Positions 4,277 through 34,531 of a stretch of DNA of 34,531 nt are shown piece by piece. A program made the position numbers and the translations under genes. Source of the DNA: Oscillatoriales cyanobacterium (GTDB lineage: Bacteria; Cyanobacteriota; Cyanobacteriia; Cyanobacteriales; Geitlerinemataceae); the NCBI GenBank assembly GCA_004293855.1, contig RDYZ01000218.1:1-34531 (forward strand), read 5' to 3'. The stretch's first letter is position 1. Each line of letters starts with the position of its first letter. Below the pieces are notes generated by a model. The model did not search any database and was not told the origin of the DNA. It was given only the letters and a program-made list of their open reading frames with translations.

Positions 4277-5869
4277 ATGACGATCGCGATCGATTTTGGT
4301 ACCAGCAATACGGTGGTGACGCGCTGGAATGCGGCGACGGGCAAAGCGGAAACGGTGCGCTTGCCGCTGGCGAGTCCGTTGGGGGATGTGCCGGTGGTGC
4401 CGAGTTTGGTGTATGTGGAGGATGCCGCCAGTGGAGCGGCGATCGTCGGTCAGGCGGTGCGAGATCGCGGCTTGGATCTGGTGAGCGATCGGCGTTTTTT
4501 TCGCAGTTTTAAGCGTGGCATCGGTGCGGATCTTCAGGGATTTTTGCCGGAATTGGACGGCGAAATCCTGCGCTTTGAGCGGATTGGTGAGCTGTTTTTG
4601 CGTCAGGTGATCGACGCGGTGCGGGCGGTTCCTCTGCCCACGGAGTCGTTAATTTTGACGGTTCCGGTGGAAAGTTTTGAGGTCTATCGCCAGTGGCTCG
4701 GGCAGGTGTGCGCGGTGACGGGGATCGATCGCGTGCGGATGATCGACGAACCGACGGCGGCGGCGTTGGGCTATGGTGCGACGGCGGCGAAATATTTACT
4801 GGTGGTGGATTTCGGTGGCGGAACGCTGGATTTATCCCTGGTGCAGCTCGATCGGGGAACGCAAAACCAGCGTAAACCCCTGGGCTTTATTTTGAAATGG
4901 GGTGATAAATCCTTTGCGGAGGAGTCGGGGCAAAAGGTCGAAACGGCGCGGGTGTTGGCGAAAAGCGGCCAGGATTTGGGCGGGACGGATATTGATAACT
5001 GGTTGGTGGATTATTTCGCCCAAACCCAGGGATTGGCAAAAAATGCGTTAACGACGCGGCTCGCGGAACGGTTGAAAATTCAGCTTTCGCAACGATCGGA
5101 GGCGACTGAGGTTTACTTTGATGAGGCGAATTTCGAGAGCTACGAGCTCAGTTTGGATCGATCGACGTTTGAGCAAATTTTGCGCGATCGGGACTTTTTT
5201 GAACGGCTCGATCGCAGCCTCAATCAGGTGCTACAGCAAGCCCAACGCCAAGACATCAGCCTGCGTGAGATTGACACGGTGCTACTCGTGGGCGGCTCGG
5301 TGCAAATTCCGGCGGTGCAGCGTTGGATTGAGGGCTATTTCCCAGCGGAGAAAATTCGGCAGGATCGCCCCCTCGATGCGATCGCGATCGGCGCACTCCA
5401 GCTCGAAGCGGGCATCGAGCTGCAAGATTTTTTGCAACACAGCTACGGGATTCGCTTTTGGGATCGCCGCAAGCAAGCCCATAGTTGGCATCCGATCATC
5501 CAAGCGGGTCAGCCCTACCCGACCCAAAATCCGATCGAAATCACCCTCGGTGCGTCCCTCGATCAGCAGCCGCAAATCGAGTTAATTTTGGGCGAGTTGG
5601 GCGATCGCAGCACGTCAACGGAAATCTTTTTTGATGGCGATCGGCTCATCACTCGCACCCTAGAGACGGATGACGCCCCCGTGAAACCGCTCAATGATAC
5701 GGATGCGGGTCGCGTCATGGCTGTCCTCGATCCGCCTGGTGTACCGGGGAGCGATCGGCTCAAGGTGCAGTTTCGGATTGATGAGCAGCGCTTTTTACGG
5801 GTGACGGTGGAGGATTTGCTGCGCTTACGGGTGTTGATTGACGATCAACCGGCGATCGAGCTGGATTAA
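4277..5869 (+). CDS. Hsp70 (DnaK-like) family protein
   Basis: MTIAIDFGTSNTVVTRW (phosphate-1), VRMIDEPTAAALGYG, LLVVDFGGGTLDLSLV, IDTVLLVGGSVQIPAVQ; actin-like ATPase with a short, diverged C-terminus. The internal ATG at 4277 is preferred over 4097. Confidence 0.87.
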   Translation: MTIAIDFGTSNTVVTRWNAATGKAETVRLPLASPLGDVPVVPSLVYVEDAASGAAIVGQAVRDRGLDLVSDRRFFRSFKRGIGADLQGFLPELDGEILRFERIGELFLRQVIDAVRAVPLPTESLILTVPVESFEVYRQWLGQVCAVTGIDRVRMIDEPTAAALGYGATAAKYLLVVDFGGGTLDLSLVQLDRGTQNQRKPLGFILKWGDKSFAEESGQKVETARVLAKSGQDLGGTDIDNWLVDYFAQTQGLAKNALTTRLAERLKIQLSQRSEATEVYFDEANFESYELSLDRSTFEQILRDRDFFERLDRSLNQVLQQAQRQDISLREIDTVLLVGGSVQIPAVQRWIEGYFPAEKIRQDRPLDAIAIGALQLEAGIELQDFLQHSYGIRFWDRRKQAHSWHPIIQAGQPYPTQNPIEITLGASLDQQPQIELILGELGDRSTSTEIFFDGDRLITRTLETDDAPVKPLNDTDAGRVMAVLDPPGVPGSDRLKVQFRIDEQRFLRVTVEDLLRLRVLIDDQPAIELD

Positions 5870-16919: not shown

Positions 16920-19598
16920 TTACGATTGACTCATGGGAGCTTCTGAGGTGAAGCCCGAGCTTGAGGTCGTATCACTCGGTGCGGTTGATCGGTGAGTCTC
17001 GATCGCCGCGATCGCGCGAGTCACACTTTCGGGAAGGATCGTGACTAGACTATCGCGTGGAGCCTCTTTTAGAGCAATATCGATCGCTTTCGACTCCTTG
17101 AGGATGGTTTCAAAGGTGCAGTTGGAGTCGGTGGATTCAATGCCACGCACGATCCACTCCGCCGCACTGCCGCGTTCTCGCCCTCGGGTATCATCATCCT
17201 CCTTGACGATGATGTGATCAAACATTCCCGCTGACAGGCGACCGAGCTCTTCGAGATCTTCGTCCCGACGATCGCCAGGGCCACCCACGACACCGATGCA
17301 TTTACCGGGCCAGTTGGCGATGAATCCGCCCAGGGCTTCATAGCTGGCAGCATTGTGGGCGTAGTCCACCAGTGCGTGATAACGACCCATGTCGAACAGG
17401 TTCATGCGTCCGGGGGTTTGATCGACGGATGCGGTAAAGGTGCGCAGACCTTGGCGAATGGCGTCTAAGTCGATGCCCTGGACGTAGGCGGCAAGGGTGG
17501 CCGCTAGGGCATTGGCAATCATAAAGGGAGCCATCCCCTTGATCGTGAGCGGCACATTTACGGCGGCTTCGACCGGTAGGCGTTCGCTGCCATTGAGGAT
17601 GACGATCCAGCCCTCGTCGTAAACCGCAGCAATGCCACCCTGGGCGACGTGGTCGCGAATGACGTCATTGTCGGGATTCATCGAGAAGAAGACCGTTGTG
17701 CCATCCACCAAGTCCCGCATGGCGGTGACCAGGGGATCATCGGCATTGAGGACGCCATACCCATCGGGACTGACGGTTTCGGCCACGACACCTTTGACCT
17801 GAGCCATTTGCTCGATCGTGTTGATATCGCCGAGGCCGAGGTGATCCGCTGCCACGTTCAGCACAACGCCCACATCGCTGCGTTCAAAGGCAAGCCCCGA
17901 TCGGATAATTCCACCCCGTGCGGTTTCGAGCACCGCAATTTCGACACTGGGATCACCCAAAATGAGATGGGCACTTTGCGGGCCGGTGTTATCCCCGGCT
18001 TCCGCGAGAAAATCGCCGATATAGGTTCCGTCCGTGGTGGTGTAGCCGACCACTTTGCCGGTTTGCCGTGCCAGGTGGGCAATTAGACGGGTGGTTGTGG
18101 TTTTACCGTTCGTACCGGTGATGGAGAAAATCGGGCATTGATGGGGTTTTCCGGGGGGGAACAACATGTCGATCGTTGCGCCTGCCACATCGCGCGATTT
18201 GCCCTCACTGGGGCTAACGTGCATCCGGAAGCCGGGAGCGGCGTTCACCTCGACGATGACACCATCGGTTTCACGCAGCGGTTTTGAGATGTCCGTGGTG
18301 ACGAAATCCATCCCGATGATATCGAGGCCGATCAGCTTGGCGACCCGCTGGGCAATCCACACGTTTTCGGGGTGAATTTCATCGGTCCGATCGATCGCCA
18401 CACCGCCCGTGCTGAGGTTCGCCGTTGCCCGGAGGTAGCAGATTTCGCCCTCATTGGGAATGCTATCAGGACGTAGACCTTGGCGAGCGAGACGCTGGAG
18501 GCTGAGGCGATCGAGCTTCAAGCGGGTCAACATGTTGTCATGACCATCACCACGACGCGGATCACGGTTGGTTTCTTCGATCAGTTCGGAAATGGTCGAT
18601 CGGCCATCTCCCACCACATGCGCCGGAACCCGTTCCGCAACCGCCACAAGCTTGCCGTCAATCACCAAGACCCGGTGATCTGACCCCTTATAAAAACGCT
18701 CGACGATGACCGATCGCGTTTTGGATTCTTCACTGGCCGCATCGTAGGCGACCTCTGCATCTTCCCAGTTATCGATGTCGATCGTAATGCCGCGCCCGTG
18801 GTTACCATCCAGAGGTTTGATCACGATCGGGTAACCCCCCACGCTGTCAATCGCCTCTTCCAAATCTTCGAGGTATTGAATCACCGTCCCGCGTGGTACC
18901 GGAATCGCAGCATCGGCGAGGAGCATTTTCGTCCCCTCCTTATCGCAGGCCAACTCCACCCCAAGGATGCTGCTACCGTCCGTTAGGGTGGCCTGGATAC
19001 GACGCTGATGGCAGCCATAGCCCAACTGGATCATCGATCGCGCACTGAGTCGCTTCCACGGAATCCCGCGATCTTCCGCCGCTTTGACGATCGATTCCGT
19101 ACTCGGCCCTAACGCCGCCTCTGCCCACAGTTCGCGCAGATCTTCTAGATCGCGATCGAATTCAGAATCGGGATAGTGTCCGGTAGCCACCAGACTTTCA
19201 CACATCCGCACCGCAGCACGCAGGGCATAGCGTCCGGCTCGCTCATCGCGATACTCAAACACCACGTTGTACACCCCCGGTTCTGCCGTGCTCCGGGCTC
19301 GACCAAAGCCCACGGACATCCCAGCGAGTTCTTGTAGCTCTAGGGCAATATGCTCCGTGACATGACCCAGAAGTGTGCCGTTTTCGACGCGCTTGAGGAA
19401 GCCACCACGATGACCCGGCGAACAAAAATGTTCCACCAAGCTGGGTAAACGGTTGACTAAACCATCATAAAACCCTGGAATTGTATCCGTCGTGCGTTCG
19501 GCGAACTCCTCGAGGTCGATGCGAGCCACGATGAGTTTTGGGCGACGAATGCTCCAGTAGTTCGGACCGCGTAGCGTGAGGATTTTAAGGATTTTCAT
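16920..19598 (-). CDS. cphA: Cyanophycin synthetase
   Basis: MKILKILTLRGPNYWSIRRPKLIVARIDLEE..., ATP-grasp region (YPIVIKPLDGNHGRGITIDI), Mur-ligase-like P-loop (FSITGTNGKTTTTRLIAHL), HALVDYAHNAASYEALGGFI; 892 aa. Confidence 0.95.
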   Translation of the reverse strand: MKILKILTLRGPNYWSIRRPKLIVARIDLEEFAERTTDTIPGFYDGLVNRLPSLVEHFCSPGHRGGFLKRVENGTLLGHVTEHIALELQELAGMSVGFGRARSTAEPGVYNVVFEYRDERAGRYALRAAVRMCESLVATGHYPDSEFDRDLEDLRELWAEAALGPSTESIVKAAEDRGIPWKRLSARSMIQLGYGCHQRRIQATLTDGSSILGVELACDKEGTKMLLADAAIPVPRGTVIQYLEDLEEAIDSVGGYPIVIKPLDGNHGRGITIDIDNWEDAEVAYDAASEESKTRSVIVERFYKGSDHRVLVIDGKLVAVAERVPAHVVGDGRSTISELIEETNRDPRRGDGHDNMLTRLKLDRLSLQRLARQGLRPDSIPNEGEICYLRATANLSTGGVAIDRTDEIHPENVWIAQRVAKLIGLDIIGMDFVTTDISKPLRETDGVIVEVNAAPGFRMHVSPSEGKSRDVAGATIDMLFPPGKPHQCPIFSITGTNGKTTTTRLIAHLARQTGKVVGYTTTDGTYIGDFLAEAGDNTGPQSAHLILGDPSVEIAVLETARGGIIRSGLAFERSDVGVVLNVAADHLGLGDINTIEQMAQVKGVVAETVSPDGYGVLNADDPLVTAMRDLVDGTTVFFSMNPDNDVIRDHVAQGGIAAVYDEGWIVILNGSERLPVEAAVNVPLTIKGMAPFMIANALAATLAAYVQGIDLDAIRQGLRTFTASVDQTPGRMNLFDMGRYHALVDYAHNAASYEALGGFIANWPGKCIGVVGGPGDRRDEDLEELGRLSAGMFDHIIVKEDDDTRGRERGSAAEWIVRGIESTDSNCTFETILKESKAIDIALKEAPRDSLVTILPESVTRAIAAIETHRSTAPSDTTSSSGFTSEAPMSQS

Positions 19599-20011
19599 AC
19601 AGCGACAGACACAGGGCGGCAGGCAGCAAAACCGCGCGAACGATTAGTGCTTTATTATGCATGAGGATTATGCAGGCGGATCGTGAATTGCGTCACGAAG
19701 CGAGCCACAGAGGGCTGCTTTATTCGTTAGTGTCAGGAATTGCTAACACCATCCGGATCGACCCACACGGGGTGAGACGTCCGATTTTTTCCGTAGCGTT
19801 GGCCGCCTGAAATGTGAGATTTTGTGGCTGTGTCGCGTTTCTGCATCCAGAGTTTCTCGGGGGTGTAAGCGGTGACCGAACCCCCTATCCGCCGTCATCG
19901 ATAACATTCGTGAGGTTCCATTGGGTTTGGGCCTGTTGGTCTCCTACACTAGCGGCTAGAGCCATCTGTCGTTGTGACATTGCCCTGTTTGACGTTTTCT
20001 GAGGTGTTCCC

Positions 20012-21148
20012 GTGAGTTTCCAAACAATCACATCCGCCAATGAAGAGCGTGCCATCCTGACTCGTCCGACCTTTGTGTTTGAGTCCAACAATATTCGCTA
20101 TGGCTTTGATGCTCACTACGTGCGGGAAGTCTTTTTCTTGCCGCAGGTGGAAGCCTTGCCGGAAGCACCCCGCGATATTATTGGCGCGATCGACCTGCGT
20201 GGGCAAATTGTCCCGGTGATGGATCTCGAGCTGCGGTTTGGTTTTCAGGCACGGGACTATCAAATTACTGATAGTGTGATCGTCTTTGAGTGTGACGGCA
20301 TCCTGATGGCGCTGGTGGTGAGTTCTGTGTTTGCGGTGCAGGATATCCCGATCGAGGATTTTCGGGCAGCACCGACCTATGGTCGCAGTGAGTATGACGG
20401 GGTGCAGATTGCTGATCCGAAGTCTGCTCCCGATGTTCTGCAACGACAACATCACTTCATGTCAGGCATTGCACAAACCCCAGAGGGAGCGGTGCGTCTA
20501 TTGGATTGTGCGGAGTTGGTGCATTACTCCCAAAGTTTGAATCTAGACAGCCTTGAGGATGAGGAAGGGCTGCGGCGTGCGTTGTGTGATCCCGAGGCGG
20601 CCCATCTGCGGACGTTTTGCCCACAGGCAACGGCGGACGAGCGTGAGATTTTTCGTCAACGGGCGATCGCCCTTCAGATGCGTCTCGAAGAGGATGTGCA
20701 AACCGATAAACTCCCCCTGGCGATCGTTGAGATTTCCGGTGAGTTTTTTGGGATTGATCTGAAGGTGGTGCGTGAATTCTTTGAAGTGAAGAAGATCGTA
20801 CCGATCCCCTGTTGTCCCGATCGCATTTTGGGCAATACCAATCTGCGGGGTGAAATTTTGACGATCGTCTCATTGCACGAGCTGCTCGGTCTACCGGCCT
20901 ACACCCGCGAAGAGATTAGTAATGCTGTGGTTGTGGTCGTCGATTCTACAATTTTCGGGATCGCGATCGATGTGGTGTTTGACGTGATGCATCTGCGATC
21001 CGCCGACATTGCACCGATCCCCACGGCGCTCCAGGGTCACGATGATGAGTTTATCCGTGGAACAGCGTCCTACCGTAAACAGATGATCAGTGTCCTAGAT
21101 CTGGAGGCGATCGTGCAGCGTAAAGTCCTGGTTGTGAATGACCGTTAA
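20012..21148 (+). CDS. Protein with two CheW-like domains
   Basis: FVFESNNIRYGFDAHYVREVFFLPQVEALPEAPRDIIGAIDLRGQIVPVMDLELRFG and a second copy LAIVEISGEFFGIDLKVVREFFEVKKIVPIPCCPDRILGNTNLRGEILTIVSLHELLGL. GTG start at 20012. Confidence 0.87.
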   Translation: MSFQTITSANEERAILTRPTFVFESNNIRYGFDAHYVREVFFLPQVEALPEAPRDIIGAIDLRGQIVPVMDLELRFGFQARDYQITDSVIVFECDGILMALVVSSVFAVQDIPIEDFRAAPTYGRSEYDGVQIADPKSAPDVLQRQHHFMSGIAQTPEGAVRLLDCAELVHYSQSLNLDSLEDEEGLRRALCDPEAAHLRTFCPQATADEREIFRQRAIALQMRLEEDVQTDKLPLAIVEISGEFFGIDLKVVREFFEVKKIVPIPCCPDRILGNTNLRGEILTIVSLHELLGLPAYTREEISNAVVVVVDSTIFGIAIDVVFDVMHLRSADIAPIPTALQGHDDEFIRGTASYRKQMISVLDLEAIVQRKVLVVNDR

Positions 21149-28738: not shown

Positions 28739-29596
28739 CTAACGCGCGACGAGTTGAGGAAAGGGATTGACCACTGCGCGACCGAAGACTTCGCAGGCAT
28801 TTCCCGGACTTTCGATCAGTTTGAGTTTATGGAGAGTGGCACCGAGATTGGCGATCGGCTCTTCGAGTAAATCGCGGATGTGGAGTGCGAAATTTTCGTC
28901 TGTGGGGACGATCGCTCCCTCGGCGAAGTACGGAATATCGGCGTTTAAAAAGGTGTGGTCGAAGGGTTCAGCCACGCGATCTTCAATCAGTTGCGTCAGC
29001 GCTCCGAGGTCAACGCTCATACCGGTGCGATCGTCCATTGTGCCGCGCACGGTCACTTCGAGGTGGTAGTTATGACCATGACCGTAGGGGCGGGCGCATT
29101 TACCGTACAGGCGATCGTTTTCGTCATCGCTCGCGCCGGGAATCGCCAGACGGTGCGCCGCGCTGAAGTGCGTCCGCAGCGACAGATAAACTTCGTTACC
29201 GTTGCCGTAGTAGTCCGCCCAGAGGTCGGGATGTTCAAATAGTTGAATCTGAACGATCGGCAAGTGGGGCGCGAGGCGTTGCCAAATCACTTTCGCGATA
29301 TGTTCTGTGGTCGGTAGCGTTTGCTGAAACTCCGGCCACACATCGTTTAGAAAGGAGAAATCGAGCGGTTCGGTTACTTCGCGCTTGATGTCGTGTTTGA
29401 TATCCGACAGGTTCAACACCATGCCGTACTCATCCAGTTGACCGGCCATCGAGACGAATAGCTCGTAGTTATGGCCGTGGCCGGGGGCGTTGGCGCAGCG
29501 TCCGAAGCGATCGCGGTTTTCGGCTTCGGTGAGTTCAGGCAGCCAGTAACGATGACTAGCGGAAAACTGGGCGCGGCGGTTGATGATACAGTCCAT
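28739..29596 (-). CDS. Tandem 6-pyruvoyl-tetrahydropterin synthase / 6-carboxytetrahydropterin synthase (QueD-like) protein
   Basis: Two PTPS-like modules in one ORF: FSASHRYW...CANAPGHGHNYELFVSM...EPLDFSFLND...PTTEHIAKVIWQRL and FSAAHRLAI...CARPYGHGHNYHLEVTV...EPFDHTFLN...PTDENFALHI. Confidence 0.9.
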   Translation of the reverse strand: MDCIINRRAQFSASHRYWLPELTEAENRDRFGRCANAPGHGHNYELFVSMAGQLDEYGMVLNLSDIKHDIKREVTEPLDFSFLNDVWPEFQQTLPTTEHIAKVIWQRLAPHLPIVQIQLFEHPDLWADYYGNGNEVYLSLRTHFSAAHRLAIPGASDDENDRLYGKCARPYGHGHNYHLEVTVRGTMDDRTGMSVDLGALTQLIEDRVAEPFDHTFLNADIPYFAEGAIVPTDENFALHIRDLLEEPIANLGATLHKLKLIESPGNACEVFGRAVVNPFPQLVAR

Positions 29597-29615
29597 GGGT
29601 TTGGGGCGAGCCGAG

Positions 29616-29717
29616 AGGGTTTGTTAAGTTCTGTGACGTATTTGTATTGTAAGGGGGAGTGCGTCGAGGGTTTGTTAAGTTCTGTGACGTATTTGTATTG
29701 TAAGGGGGAGTGCGTCG
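29616..29717. repeat. Perfect tandem duplication, 2 x 51 bp
   Basis: GAGGGTTTGTTAAGTTCTGTGACGTATTTGTATTGTAAGGGGGAGTGCGTC occurs twice back to back with no mismatch, 20 bp upstream of the PTPS-like gene. Confidence 0.97.
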
Positions 29718-29821
29718 TGTCAGAGGATTTGAGCCGGATTAACGTGGCGCACGAACCCAGCCCGCTGCTTGTGCTTCCGCAGCTTTTTGGGAGCTGGGGC
29801 ATCGGTCATGAGGGAAGCTAA

Positions 29822-29856
29822 TCCGTATAAAATGCCAATTACGGAGATTATACGGA
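29822..29856. promoter_or_regulatory. Candidate operator: 9-bp perfect inverted repeat at the edge of the AT-rich segment
   Basis: TCCGTATAA-N17-TTATACGGA. Functional role is inference only. Confidence 0.35.
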
Positions 29857-30055
29857 GAGTTTCCGCACAATCATTCCCATATAGAATGTTAGACGGATAA
29901 AATCTTAAGAGAAACCATATAGGGGTGATTGGGTAGAAAAAATACGTACAATTTGGGACTGGACGCTTCAGGCTTCCTGCAAGGACATATATAAACCCTT
30001 TGTGGAATATTAATAAACTTGTAAGTTTTTAGTTAGACAGAAAAAGAAGGCTCAA

Positions 30056-30265
30056 ATGACTCCAGAGAACGATCCAAATAACAGTAATATTCAAAATCCC
30101 ACAAACCCAGAAAAGATTGAACAGTCAACTCAAGTCTTGCTAGCTTTCATTACTTATCAATGGTCACAAGCCAAACAATCTGAAGATCAGCGAGTAGCCA
30201 TAACCAACTCTCTTCTAAGAGCTAATTACTCTGTTAGGAGGTTTTGGTATAGTTACAAGTACTAA
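30056..30265 (+). CDS. Small hypothetical protein upstream of the AIPR gene
   Basis: 69 aa, MTPENDPNNSNIQNPTNPEKIEQSTQVLLAFITYQWSQAKQSEDQRVAITNSLLRANYSVRRFWYSYKY; preceded by an AAGAAGG-like RBS, same strand as and 56 bp before the AIPR ORF. No family recognised. Confidence 0.45.
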   Translation: MTPENDPNNSNIQNPTNPEKIEQSTQVLLAFITYQWSQAKQSEDQRVAITNSLLRANYSVRRFWYSYKY

Positions 30266-30321
30266 ATATACATCGTTAGATTTTCACAACTAGGAAGCAG
30301 AAATAATCAAAGAGGAAGGAA

Positions 30322-32040
30322 ATGGATAGAATCACCAAAAAACTTTTGCAGGATTTCCTAAAAGCACAAGAATTGGATGAGTGCGATGAGTCTAGCGATT
30401 TTGAGCTTTTCTGTAATTATTCTGTACTTGCTAACGAATACAATAAAACATTTGATGCTAAAGCCATCACTGTAGGTGCTGGCGCTGATACAGGAATTGA
30501 TGGCATAGCAATAATTGTAAATGGACACTTAGTTGAAGATACAGACGAAATAGACAGTTTACTGGAAACAAACGGATACTTAGAAGTAACATATCTGTTC
30601 ATTCAATCCAAAACCTCATGTAACTTTGATACCAAAGAAATGCATACGTTTTACTTTGGAGTAATTGATTTCTTTGCAGAGGAGCCAAAGTTAACTAGGA
30701 ATGATGATATTAAAAGGTTCTCAGAGCTTTCAGAGTATTTGTTAGAAAAAGCCTCTGATTTTAAAGATAATCCAATTTGTAAAACATTTTATATTACTAC
30801 AGGCGTCGTAAATAAAGACCAAAACATTACCGCTGCTGTTGATTACTCTACTAAAAACCTAGAAAACTATAAACTCTTTGAACGCGTTGAGGCTAAAGTG
30901 CTTGGCGCTCAAGAACTTGGCAAGCTTTATAGAAAAACGAAAAATCCGATATCTTCAAAATTCACATTCACCAACAAAATCAGCCTGCCTGACATAGAAG
31001 GTATTGATCAGTCCTTTTATGGAGTTCTTCCATTTTCGGAGTTTAGAAAGCTCTTAATTGATGACAATGGCAATATTCAATCCATATTTGATGATAATGT
31101 TCGAGATTTTCAGGGAATCGGAAACTTGGTTAATAGTAATATCAACGAAACTTTAAAGAGCGATAGACCCGACTTGTTTAGCGTATTAAATAATGGTGTA
31201 ACAATTGTTGCAGATTCCATAAAGACATCTGCGAATACTTTGACCATTACAGATTATCAAATTGTAAATGGCTGCCAAACAAGCAACGTTCTTTACGAAA
31301 ATCGGAACAATGAAAAAATCAATGATATAAATATACCGTTAAGATTAATTGTGACGACGGATGAGGATATTAAGGCGAAAATAACGGTTTCTACAAACAA
31401 TCAGACTGCCATTAAAAAAGAACAGTTGGCAGCTATGTCTGATTTTCAAAAAAATCTCCAACATTATTATTCTTCAATAAATGGAGAGGGGAAATTGTTC
31501 TACGAAAGAAGAGCTAAAGAATATAATTCAGACAGAAATATTGTTAAGAGAAAGATTATTACTATTGCTAATCAAATAAAATCCTTTTCAGCAATGTTTA
31601 GTAAAAATCCGCACATGGTAACCACTTATCTAGGTACACTAGTGAAAACCATGGGCAATCCTGGCTCAAAACTCTTTGAAAAAGACCATCAGTTTTCTCC
31701 ATATTACATGGCGGGTTTGGCTTTTTATAGATTAGATTCTTTGTTCAATAACGGAACGATAGATAAGAAGTATAAAAAGGTCCGGTTTTACATATTGATG
31801 CTTGTTCCCATGATTGCGTCTACTGACGATTTACCTCCTCTAAATAGCCAAAAAAAATGTGAGCGTTTCTGTAATCTCATAATTAACAAATTGAATGATG
31901 AAAATGTCTATTCAACTATATTTGCAGAGGCGGTAAAAGTAATTGATCGTTCGGGTGCCAATGTTGAAGATAAAGAAGCGTTAAAGTCTCGAGCTATGAC
32001 AGATCAAATTTTAGCTGCCTATAGCGGAGAGAAAATTTAA
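30322..32040 (+). CDS. AIPR (abortive infection phage resistance) family protein
   Basis: 572 aa. AIPR-like core RPDLFSVLNNGVTIVADSIKTSANTLTITDYQIVNGCQTSNVLYEN...STNNQTAIKKEQLAAMSDFQKNLQHYYS...LFYERRAKEYN; good RBS (AGAGGAAGGAAATG). Confidence 0.88.
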   Translation: MDRITKKLLQDFLKAQELDECDESSDFELFCNYSVLANEYNKTFDAKAITVGAGADTGIDGIAIIVNGHLVEDTDEIDSLLETNGYLEVTYLFIQSKTSCNFDTKEMHTFYFGVIDFFAEEPKLTRNDDIKRFSELSEYLLEKASDFKDNPICKTFYITTGVVNKDQNITAAVDYSTKNLENYKLFERVEAKVLGAQELGKLYRKTKNPISSKFTFTNKISLPDIEGIDQSFYGVLPFSEFRKLLIDDNGNIQSIFDDNVRDFQGIGNLVNSNINETLKSDRPDLFSVLNNGVTIVADSIKTSANTLTITDYQIVNGCQTSNVLYENRNNEKINDINIPLRLIVTTDEDIKAKITVSTNNQTAIKKEQLAAMSDFQKNLQHYYSSINGEGKLFYERRAKEYNSDRNIVKRKIITIANQIKSFSAMFSKNPHMVTTYLGTLVKTMGNPGSKLFEKDHQFSPYYMAGLAFYRLDSLFNNGTIDKKYKKVRFYILMLVPMIASTDDLPPLNSQKKCERFCNLIINKLNDENVYSTIFAEAVKVIDRSGANVEDKEALKSRAMTDQILAAYSGEKI

Positions 32041-32052
32041 CAAGCACATGTT

Positions 32053-32180
32053 TTTTACTCGTTCCCACGCTCGCGTGGGTAATGCAAGCCCCAGACGCTC
32101 TGCGTCGCGACCATAGACCATGATTCGCTGGACGCAGAGCGTCCAAACGGCATTCCCACGCAGAGCACAGGAACGATTAA
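32053..32180. mobile_element. MITE-like foldback element, copy A
   Basis: TTTTACTCGTTCCCACGCTCGCGTGGG...GACGCTCTGCGTC...GACGCAGAGCGTC...ATTCCCACGCAGAGCACAGGAACGATTAA. Outer and inner arms are complementary, and a near-identical copy lies at 33791. No transposase encoded. Confidence 0.75.
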
Positions 32181-32190
32181 GCCGGAAGCA

Positions 32191-32237
32191 TTTGTTAAGT
32201 TCTGTGAATCTCCTACATTGTAAAGGGGAGTGTGTCG
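32191..32237 (+). repeat. Third, diverged copy of the 51-bp repeat
   Basis: TTTGTTAAGTTCTGTGA-ATCTCCTAC-ATTGTAAAGGGGAGTGTGTCG versus TTTGTTAAGTTCTGTGA-CGTATTTGT-ATTGTAAGGGGGAGTGCGTCG at 29621 and 29672. Conserved ends flank a 9-nt variable middle, same strand. Confidence 0.88.
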
Positions 32238-32311
32238 CGCTGGGGTGAAGCCGAGTTCAATGGGGCGGTTCTAAGCCATGATCGTGATAGTTGTGCTGGA
32301 GAGAGTTTGCG

Positions 32312-32629
32312 ATGAATGTTCGGTTGGTTGAATCGTTGGTTGAGGCGATCGCGTCGCTACCCGAGGATGAGTACACGCTGTTTCAGGTGGCGCTCGTCAC
32401 AAAAATGGTACGCAAGACGCCGGGTGTCGCGGGTGGTCATGCCTGCATTCGGAACACGCGGATTGCGGTATGGACATTGATTTCGTTCGCGCTGCAAGGA
32501 GCGAATGATACGGAATTGGCGTTGCATTTTCCGGGGTTGACTCAGTTTGATTTTGTGGCGGCGCGATCGTACTACGAGGCGAATCGGGCTGAGATTGACG
32601 CGGCGATCGCCTCGCATGATTGCGAGTAG
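32312..32629 (+). CDS. DUF433-family protein (putative antitoxin)
   Basis: TPGVAGGHACIRNTRIAVWTLISFALQGANDTELALHFPGLTQFDFVAARSYYEANRAEID is the DUF433 signature. ORF opens 32291; ATG 32312 preferred. Confidence 0.87.
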   Translation: MNVRLVESLVEAIASLPEDEYTLFQVALVTKMVRKTPGVAGGHACIRNTRIAVWTLISFALQGANDTELALHFPGLTQFDFVAARSYYEANRAEIDAAIASHDCE

Positions 32630-32638
32630 GTGGGAGGA

Positions 32639-33040
32639 ATGTCCAGCGTGTTTCGGTTTTATGCCAACGAAAATTTATCGGCGCTTTTGGTCAAGGCTTT
32701 GCGCGATCGCGGCCATGATGTTTTAACTTCCTATGAGTCTGGTCGTGCCAATCAGCGCATCCCTGATGATGGGGTGCTACGCGATGCCACGATCGATGGG
32801 CGGTGTGTGGTGACGTTTAATCGAGATGATTTTGTGGCGCTTCATCGTGGCGGAATGGAACATGCAGGGATTGTCATTTGCAAGGACGATCGCGATTGTG
32901 AGGGGCAAGCGCAGATGTTGGAAGGTTGGTTGCGATCGCCAACGTGTTTAAACAATCGATGCTTACGGGTGCTGCGGCGTAATGAGCGAGGCAATAGCCA
33001 GCCGGTTTGGGTGATTCAGGAGTATGGGCGATCGGGATAG
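32639..33040 (+). CDS. DUF5615-family PIN-like protein (putative toxin)
   Basis: FRFYANENLSALLVKALRDRGHDVLTSYESGRANQRIPDDGVLRDATIDGRCVVTFNRDDFVALHR...HAGIVICKDD; starts 9 bp after the DUF433 stop, PIN-like acidic motifs. Confidence 0.87.
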   Translation: MSSVFRFYANENLSALLVKALRDRGHDVLTSYESGRANQRIPDDGVLRDATIDGRCVVTFNRDDFVALHRGGMEHAGIVICKDDRDCEGQAQMLEGWLRSPTCLNNRCLRVLRRNERGNSQPVWVIQEYGRSG

Positions 33041-33790: not shown

Positions 33791-33919
33791 TTTTACTCGT
33801 TCCCACGCTCCGCGTGGGCAACGCAAGCCCCAGACGCTCTGCGTCGCGACTATAGACCATGATTCACTGGACGCAGAGCGTCCAAACGGCATTCCCACAC
33901 AGAGCGCAGGAACGATTAA
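33791..33919. mobile_element. MITE-like foldback element, copy B
   Basis: Aligns with copy A (32053..32180) with about six substitutions and one indel; imperfect terminal inverted repeats TTTTACTCGTTCC / GGAACGATTAAAA. Confidence 0.75.
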
Positions 33920-34078: not shown

Positions 34079-34240
34079 AGCTTCAGGCAGAATGCAGATC
34101 CTTGAATACTGTATTCCTACACAACATTATGTCCCCGACGATCGCGCCCATTCCAAAACCTCAGCGGTCTAACGCCCCCCCAACCCACCCCAAAACAACA
34201 GCGTCCATTCTGTCTAACCAACCATCGAGGCACGAGATCG

Positions 34241-34531
34241 ATGCCAGAACCACCCACGATTCAAACCCTGAGCCAAACCCTGACGCTCAACCTCCCCACC
34301 AGCCTCAAACTCCAGATCACCCCCGACCAATTTGCGATCCTCGCCGCCAGCAATCGCACACTCCGCCTCGAACGCACCGCCCAGGGAGAACTATCCGTGA
34401 ATCCACCCACCGGCTGGGAAACCGGCGAACGTAATCGCAGCATCATCGGACAGCTCGATCGCTGGTATGACCTCAATGGCAGCCCCGGAAAAGCCTTCGA
34501 CTCATCCACCGGATTTATCCTGCCAAATGGA
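34241..34531 (+). CDS. Uma2-family (DUF820) putative endonuclease, N-terminal part (3' truncated by window edge)
   Basis: ATG at 34241 opens MPEPPTIQTLSQTLTLNLPTSLKLQITPDQFAILAASNRTLRLERTAQGELSVNPPTGWETGERNRSIIGQLDRWYDLNGSPGKAFDSSTGFILPNG with no stop before the window end; absent from the ORF track. 'F.L.PNG' is Uma2-like. Confidence 0.8.
   Translation, partial: MPEPPTIQTLSQTLTLNLPTSLKLQITPDQFAILAASNRTLRLERTAQGELSVNPPTGWETGERNRSIIGQLDRWYDLNGSPGKAFDSSTGFILPNG

Follow-up and report, generated by a model that had tools for sequence, protein, structure and literature searches.

A putative worn integron cassette with an AIPR/AbiU-type gene beside the duplicated candidate promoter of a host PTPS gene in an Oscillatoriales cyanobacterium

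Integrons are already known as stores of anti-phage genes: such genes have been described in integron cassettes (Darracq et al. 2025, Getz et al. 2025 and Kieffer et al. 2025, as cited in PMC12444791), and the insertion of cassettes at non-classical attG sites has likewise been described (Loot et al. 2024, as cited in PMC12444791 and PMC12901181). A literature search covering papers available without subscription found no relevant paper linking AIPR genes with integron cassettes. A second described element that bears on the locus is the HLR1 motif (consensus KTTACAWW-N2-KTTACAWW), which, in the account of this motif given in PMC13421787, is bound by RpaB and, where it overlaps the start point, allows RpaB to repress until high light.

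The window, i.e. the whole 34,531-nucleotide stretch analyzed (GCA_004293855.1, contig RDYZ01000218.1, positions 1 to 34,531), contains an AIPR gene with copies of a repeat on both sides. The reading that we consider probable is that these are two unrelated neighbors: the repeat would be the promoter region of a host PTPS gene, and the AIPR gene would be carried by a former integron cassette. The pertinent features are:

28739 to 29596, minus strand: host 6-pyruvoyl/6-carboxy-tetrahydropterin synthase (PTPS/QueD-family) gene with two PTPS domains (Pfam PTPS 201.5 bits, in two stretches; TIGR00039 and QueD above cut-off)
29615 to 29665, minus strand: candidate promoter repeat of PTPS, copy 1 (HLR1-like box 29620-29637; -10-like TACAAT 29646-29651)
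29666 to 29716, minus strand: candidate promoter repeat, copy 2, with the same sequence as copy 1 (HLR1-like box 29671-29688; TACAAT 29697-29702)
29819 to 30274, plus strand: AT-rich leader with a 69-aa ORF (30056-30265) that has no relatives
30275 to 30281, plus strand: left edge of the cassette, G^TTAGAT (matching the integron core GTTRRRY), the leftmost letters common to the AIPR loci
30322 to 32040, plus strand: intact gene for an AIPR protein, probably of the AbiU abortive-infection type, 572 aa (Pfam PF10592 and PADLOC AbiU)
32035 to 32041, plus strand: R'' (ATTTAAC), the first attC box, matching the consensus RYYYAAC (PMC12901181) and overlapping the AIPR stop; the CAAGC after it is shared with L104 and L105
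32058 to 32176, no strand assigned: dispersed repeat element of about 120 bp with inverted ends (26 matches in its own genome, copies aligned), at the position of the missing attC part
32191 to 32237, minus strand: candidate promoter repeat, copy 3 (79%), right of the cargo

In copy 3 the HLR1-like box lies at 32191-32208 and the TACAAT at 32217-32222.

An earlier note had named the AIPR gene from the sequence, and this identity is confirmed: the protein scores 145.9 bits against Pfam PF10592 (gathering score 25) and matches PADLOC AbiU over its full length (412.1 bits, residues 2-567), a combination shared with the known AbiU/AIPR proteins. MzaE, from the MZA system, is only distantly related, and at 51.7 bits against NF041935 (cut-off 1050) the window protein is not a MzaE. 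Its nearest relatives, 81-86% identical, are found in Alteromonadaceae, Motilimonas, Cycloclasticus, Methylophaga and a Sulfurovaceae bacterium, and in the tree it falls inside a Pseudomonadota/Campylobacterota group with support 100/99. The 385 other cyanobacterial genomes contain three homologs that pass E 1e-60, at 36-50% identity and none of them comparable, and neither of the two same-genus genomes (G001 and G002) has the gene upstream of PTPS. Together these comparisons uphold the claim of the earlier note that the segment was horizontally acquired and mark the gene as foreign. Related AIPR genes are also found on plasmids and phages; no close AIPR was present in the viral contigs searched, and a search for extra gammaproteobacterial copies found none besides that of Motilimonas. 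Synonymous sites of the gene are saturated and pN is 0.08, pointing to strong purifying selection on the protein along these lineages.

With respect to function, G54, D56, D60-G61, Q95 and K97 are invariant in the N-terminal portion of the AIPR alignment, and a structure model places D60-G61 at one strand and the QxK motif on the next strand, which we take to be the layout of the PD-(D/E)xK nucleases. A fold search against the PDB gave no match at E <= 0.001, and no solved structural relative was found by sequence; one review assigns an N-terminal HEPN domain to AIPR proteins instead (PMC3506569). The protein is most likely an AbiU-type abortive-infection effector, with a predicted nuclease mechanism based on its N-terminal GxDxxxDG...QxK signature: the PD-(D/E)xK-like site would attack nucleic acid upon a phage trigger, while the C-terminal AIPR domain would sense or regulate. 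The putative role in phage defense, and abortive infection in particular, is taken from the family name.

DNA homology between the window and its relatives sets in no more than about 47 bases ahead of the start codon and breaks off at the stop or a few bases past it. The leftmost letters in common are G^TTAGAT, present as such in L104, L105 and L108 and with one change each in L102 and L103; across six loci the mean pairwise identity is 0.31 to the left and 0.77 to the right of this point. In L104 (Alteromonadaceae) the same letters form the R' box of a canonical attC at 4471-4539, which the AIPR gene directly follows; a second attC lies upstream at a distance of one gene, a worn attC lies downstream, and all three fold as bottom-strand hairpins (z -3.3 to -4.4). 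In L108 (Motilimonas) the AIPR gene is found at an attI: to the left of the crossover, 120 bases show homology to the attI next to the IntI of the same genome (L134), and this homology stops exactly at the crossover. In L113 and L115 (Flavobacterium ichthyis and Dyadobacter tibetensis) the AIPR gene is part of a single 1,862-bp unit, 99.3% identical between the two, with a complete folded attC on both sides, differing attC partners, and identity that drops to about 50% just outside both G^TT points. Of the seven genomes with a close AIPR, four encode an integron integrase above the curated cut-off and a fifth encodes a split one, versus one of 39 cyanobacterial relatives and none of 14 controls. 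From the attC and attI contexts, the edges of the L113/L115 unit at G^TT and this occurrence of IntI, the AIPR lineage in the relatives is recognized by sequence as an integron gene cassette.

Two hairpins or sets of hairpins were set aside in this comparison: those near the AIPR gene in Sulfurovaceae L102 are terminator-like rather than attC and were excluded from the evidence, and the attC-like hairpin after the AIPR gene in Motilimonas L117 is weak (z -1.1). In Motilimonas eburnea (L108/L117/L134) the AIPR cassette occupies a second attI-like site with no integrase nearby; the site shares a contig with the integron integrase, located at its opposite end, and the AIPR gene is split over two contig ends. 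The units at L113:5976-7837 and L115:5976-7837, with their unlike neighbors, constitute a clear recent cassette exchange between families. Integron-integrase genes that contain internal stops, or are split or fragmented (L119-L126), are seen in six genomes of cyanobacterial relatives (G029, G008, G010, G027, G033 and G026), which suggests that integrons have been lost in the order.

The window copy shares with the anti-phage integron cassettes a single defense-type gene, a G^TTRRRY left edge and a 3' RYYYAAC box, and its close relatives likewise sit at attC or attI in integrase-bearing genomes. It differs from them in standing alone, in a cyanobacterium in which no integron integrase above cut-off was found (genome 82% complete), and in an attC that is reduced to one box: R'' is all that was recovered of an attC in the window, and the dispersed element sits where the rest should be. 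No attI was found in the window, and the left edge has no similarity to the Motilimonas sites; a worn attI at this edge was rejected (p 0.14-0.74 against those sites), as was an attC just left of the cassette at 30190-30280 (z 0.2). Hence, to judge from its edges, the window AIPR gene is cassette-derived rather than a functional cassette and, its attC being reduced to the first box, is now probably immobile and fixed. As with the insertions at attG, the cassette lies outside an integron, but it differs from these in having neither an intact attC nor clean target half-sites, and for this reason its insertion by an integron integrase can only be inferred. The proposed history is that integron integrases moved the AIPR cassette lineage among Gammaproteobacteria, Campylobacterota and Bacteroidota, and that one cassette would then have been inserted beside PTPS, outside any recognizable integron.

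The composition of the DNA around the cassette bears on how it might have entered. The best two-breakpoint segmentation delimits an AT-rich block at 29819-32057, in close agreement with the 29820-32040 of the earlier note, with GC of 0.365 at 29821-30275 and 0.342 at 30276-32040 versus 0.553 to the left; 29717-29818, between copy 2 and the block, is host-like in GC. The absence of the octamer GCGATCGC (HIP1) from the block, also pointed out previously, is true and extends over 29507-32345, but it is weak evidence of foreignness and was discarded as proof: about 2.9 occurrences are expected (P of zero ~0.06), and a longer GCGATCGC-free gap is present elsewhere in the window at 17008-20663. AT-rich DNA starts 456 bp left of the cassette edge, so that the foreign or AT-rich DNA is not confined to the cassette. 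This feature favors the most serious alternative, a possible if somewhat doubtful one, namely that the cassette-derived block, including the leader at 29819-30275, arrived within a larger piece of foreign DNA through illegitimate or homologous recombination or on a plasmid or phage, with no integrase acting here. The failure to find attC, attI or IntI in the host, and the plasmid- and phage-borne relatives of the gene, would fit the same route; against it, a search of 28 other relatives gave no match to the leader region 29717-30290, and this region shares no flank with any AIPR locus fetched. Between the promoter copies and the AT-rich block there is also a 29-codon basic ORF (29723-29809, minus strand) with no relatives in 58 other genomes. 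A GC-rich palindrome at 29734-29826 was tried as an attC and rejected (z -1.5 and -1.0).

Turning to the repeat, the perfect tandem reported previously on the left border is present at 29615-29716 as two 51-bp units that are 100% identical, as is the diverged third copy on the same strand to the right, at 32191-32237, which is 79% identical over 47 bp (E 1.7e-4 in a whole-genome search); these are the only two sites of the repeat in the whole genome. The PTPS gene, on the minus strand, has the tandem immediately upstream of it and is 95% identical to that of the same-genus genome G002, the closest relative. At the equivalent position upstream of PTPS, G002 contains one repeat copy and no cargo, and in G001 the repeat is partly recognizable. 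On the PTPS strand each copy shows TACAAT, a short spacer and GTCACAGA-AC-TTAACAAA, with the first base changed in copy 3. An HLR1-like direct repeat is found just upstream of PTPS in most of 30 loci of the order (29 other genomes), with 1-2 mismatches in the best loci, 1-4 in most relatives and usually 5-7 in windows farther upstream; the box here has 3 mismatches in 16 against the consensus. Since PTPS loci across the order retain this HLR1-like box in their upstream region, the 51-bp repeat is best identified as the conserved promoter/operator region of the host PTPS gene, tandem-duplicated here. A further copy would have been displaced to the right of the cargo. Copy 3 was also considered as a piece of a longer leader-plus-promoter unit, but the extension (p 0.25 to the left, p 0.05 to the right) is not relied on.

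The arrangement, in which an HLR1-type direct repeat at the presumed start point comes after a -10-like TACAAT, would be that of a promoter repressed by RpaB until high light, making the box a diverged candidate operator through which RpaB may control PTPS. With the described HLR1/RpaB high-light promoters (PMC13421787, PMC6331805) the PTPS loci of the order share a repeat resembling KTTACAWW-N2-KTTACAWW near the presumed start point, whereas the window site is diverged and duplicated. PTPS does not appear among the RpaB targets named in the literature consulted.

The significant homology of copy 3 begins at TTTGTTAAG, within which a GTTRRRY core is contained. This leads to the speculation, to which we assign a low probability, that the cassette integrated at an attG-like core G^TTAAGT that makes up half of the RpaB operator of the host promoter, displacing the promoter; the promoter site concerned would be TTTGTTAAGT. 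The missing left half-site counts against this form of entry. If true, cassettes in cyanobacteria would have natural landing sites in light-response operators of such shape.

The earlier note had offered a different account: a mobile or excisable AIPR island, with the 51-bp repeats as its attachment or recombination sites, or as the ends of an excised circle. Repeat copies on the same strand to either side of the foreign DNA, and the AT-richness of the cargo, agree with such an island, but we regard it as very improbable: the repeat exists without cargo as the PTPS promoter copy in G002, and its box is order-wide, the outer copies are alike at only 79% over 47 bp, and the two ORFs of the block include no recombinase of the kind expected in an ICE or genomic island. 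Nor do the edges of AIPR homology in the relatives agree with a circle formed between the repeats, as they fall inside them, at the cassette core sites, which lie some 560 bp (30275) and 150 bp (32035) from the repeats. The proposed empty-site comparison was successful on one side, in that a single repeat copy is found at the PTPS flank in G002; the far flank is non-syntenic, its sequence was not found adjoining PTPS in relatives, and the join across the gap was not obtained. The case cautions that direct repeats flanking foreign DNA can represent merely a duplicated host promoter. Also very improbable is an assembly or binning chimera with the AIPR gene from a contaminating bacterium, which the draft state of the genome (496 contigs, 82% complete) and the gammaproteobacterial look of the gene might suggest, but which is contradicted by host DNA on both sides (PTPS 95% and 34222-34530 92% identical to G002), host dispersed elements right of AIPR and a block that is not at a contig end.

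Returning to the favored reading of a host promoter beside a former cassette, the comparison shows a single defense-gene lineage traveling as an integron cassette in Pseudomonadota and Bacteroidota; Campylobacterota carry close copies of the gene. The cyanobacterial copy, worn and outside any integron, would be a gene of the cassette pool parked in a chromosome in which no working integron was found.

The dispersed element that sits between the AIPR gene and repeat copy 3 belongs to a family of ~120-130-bp repeats, represented in the window at 32050-32180 and 33791-33919, with inverted ends CTCGTTCCCACGCTC...GAGCGTAGGAACGAG; besides the matches in this genome, many are present in relatives of the family. 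The two copies bracket DUF433, DUF5615 and Uma2 genes. The DUF433 and DUF5615 genes are arranged back to back at 32291-33040 beside the AIPR block, with no PADLOC match, a layout that is presumably that of a toxin-antitoxin pair.
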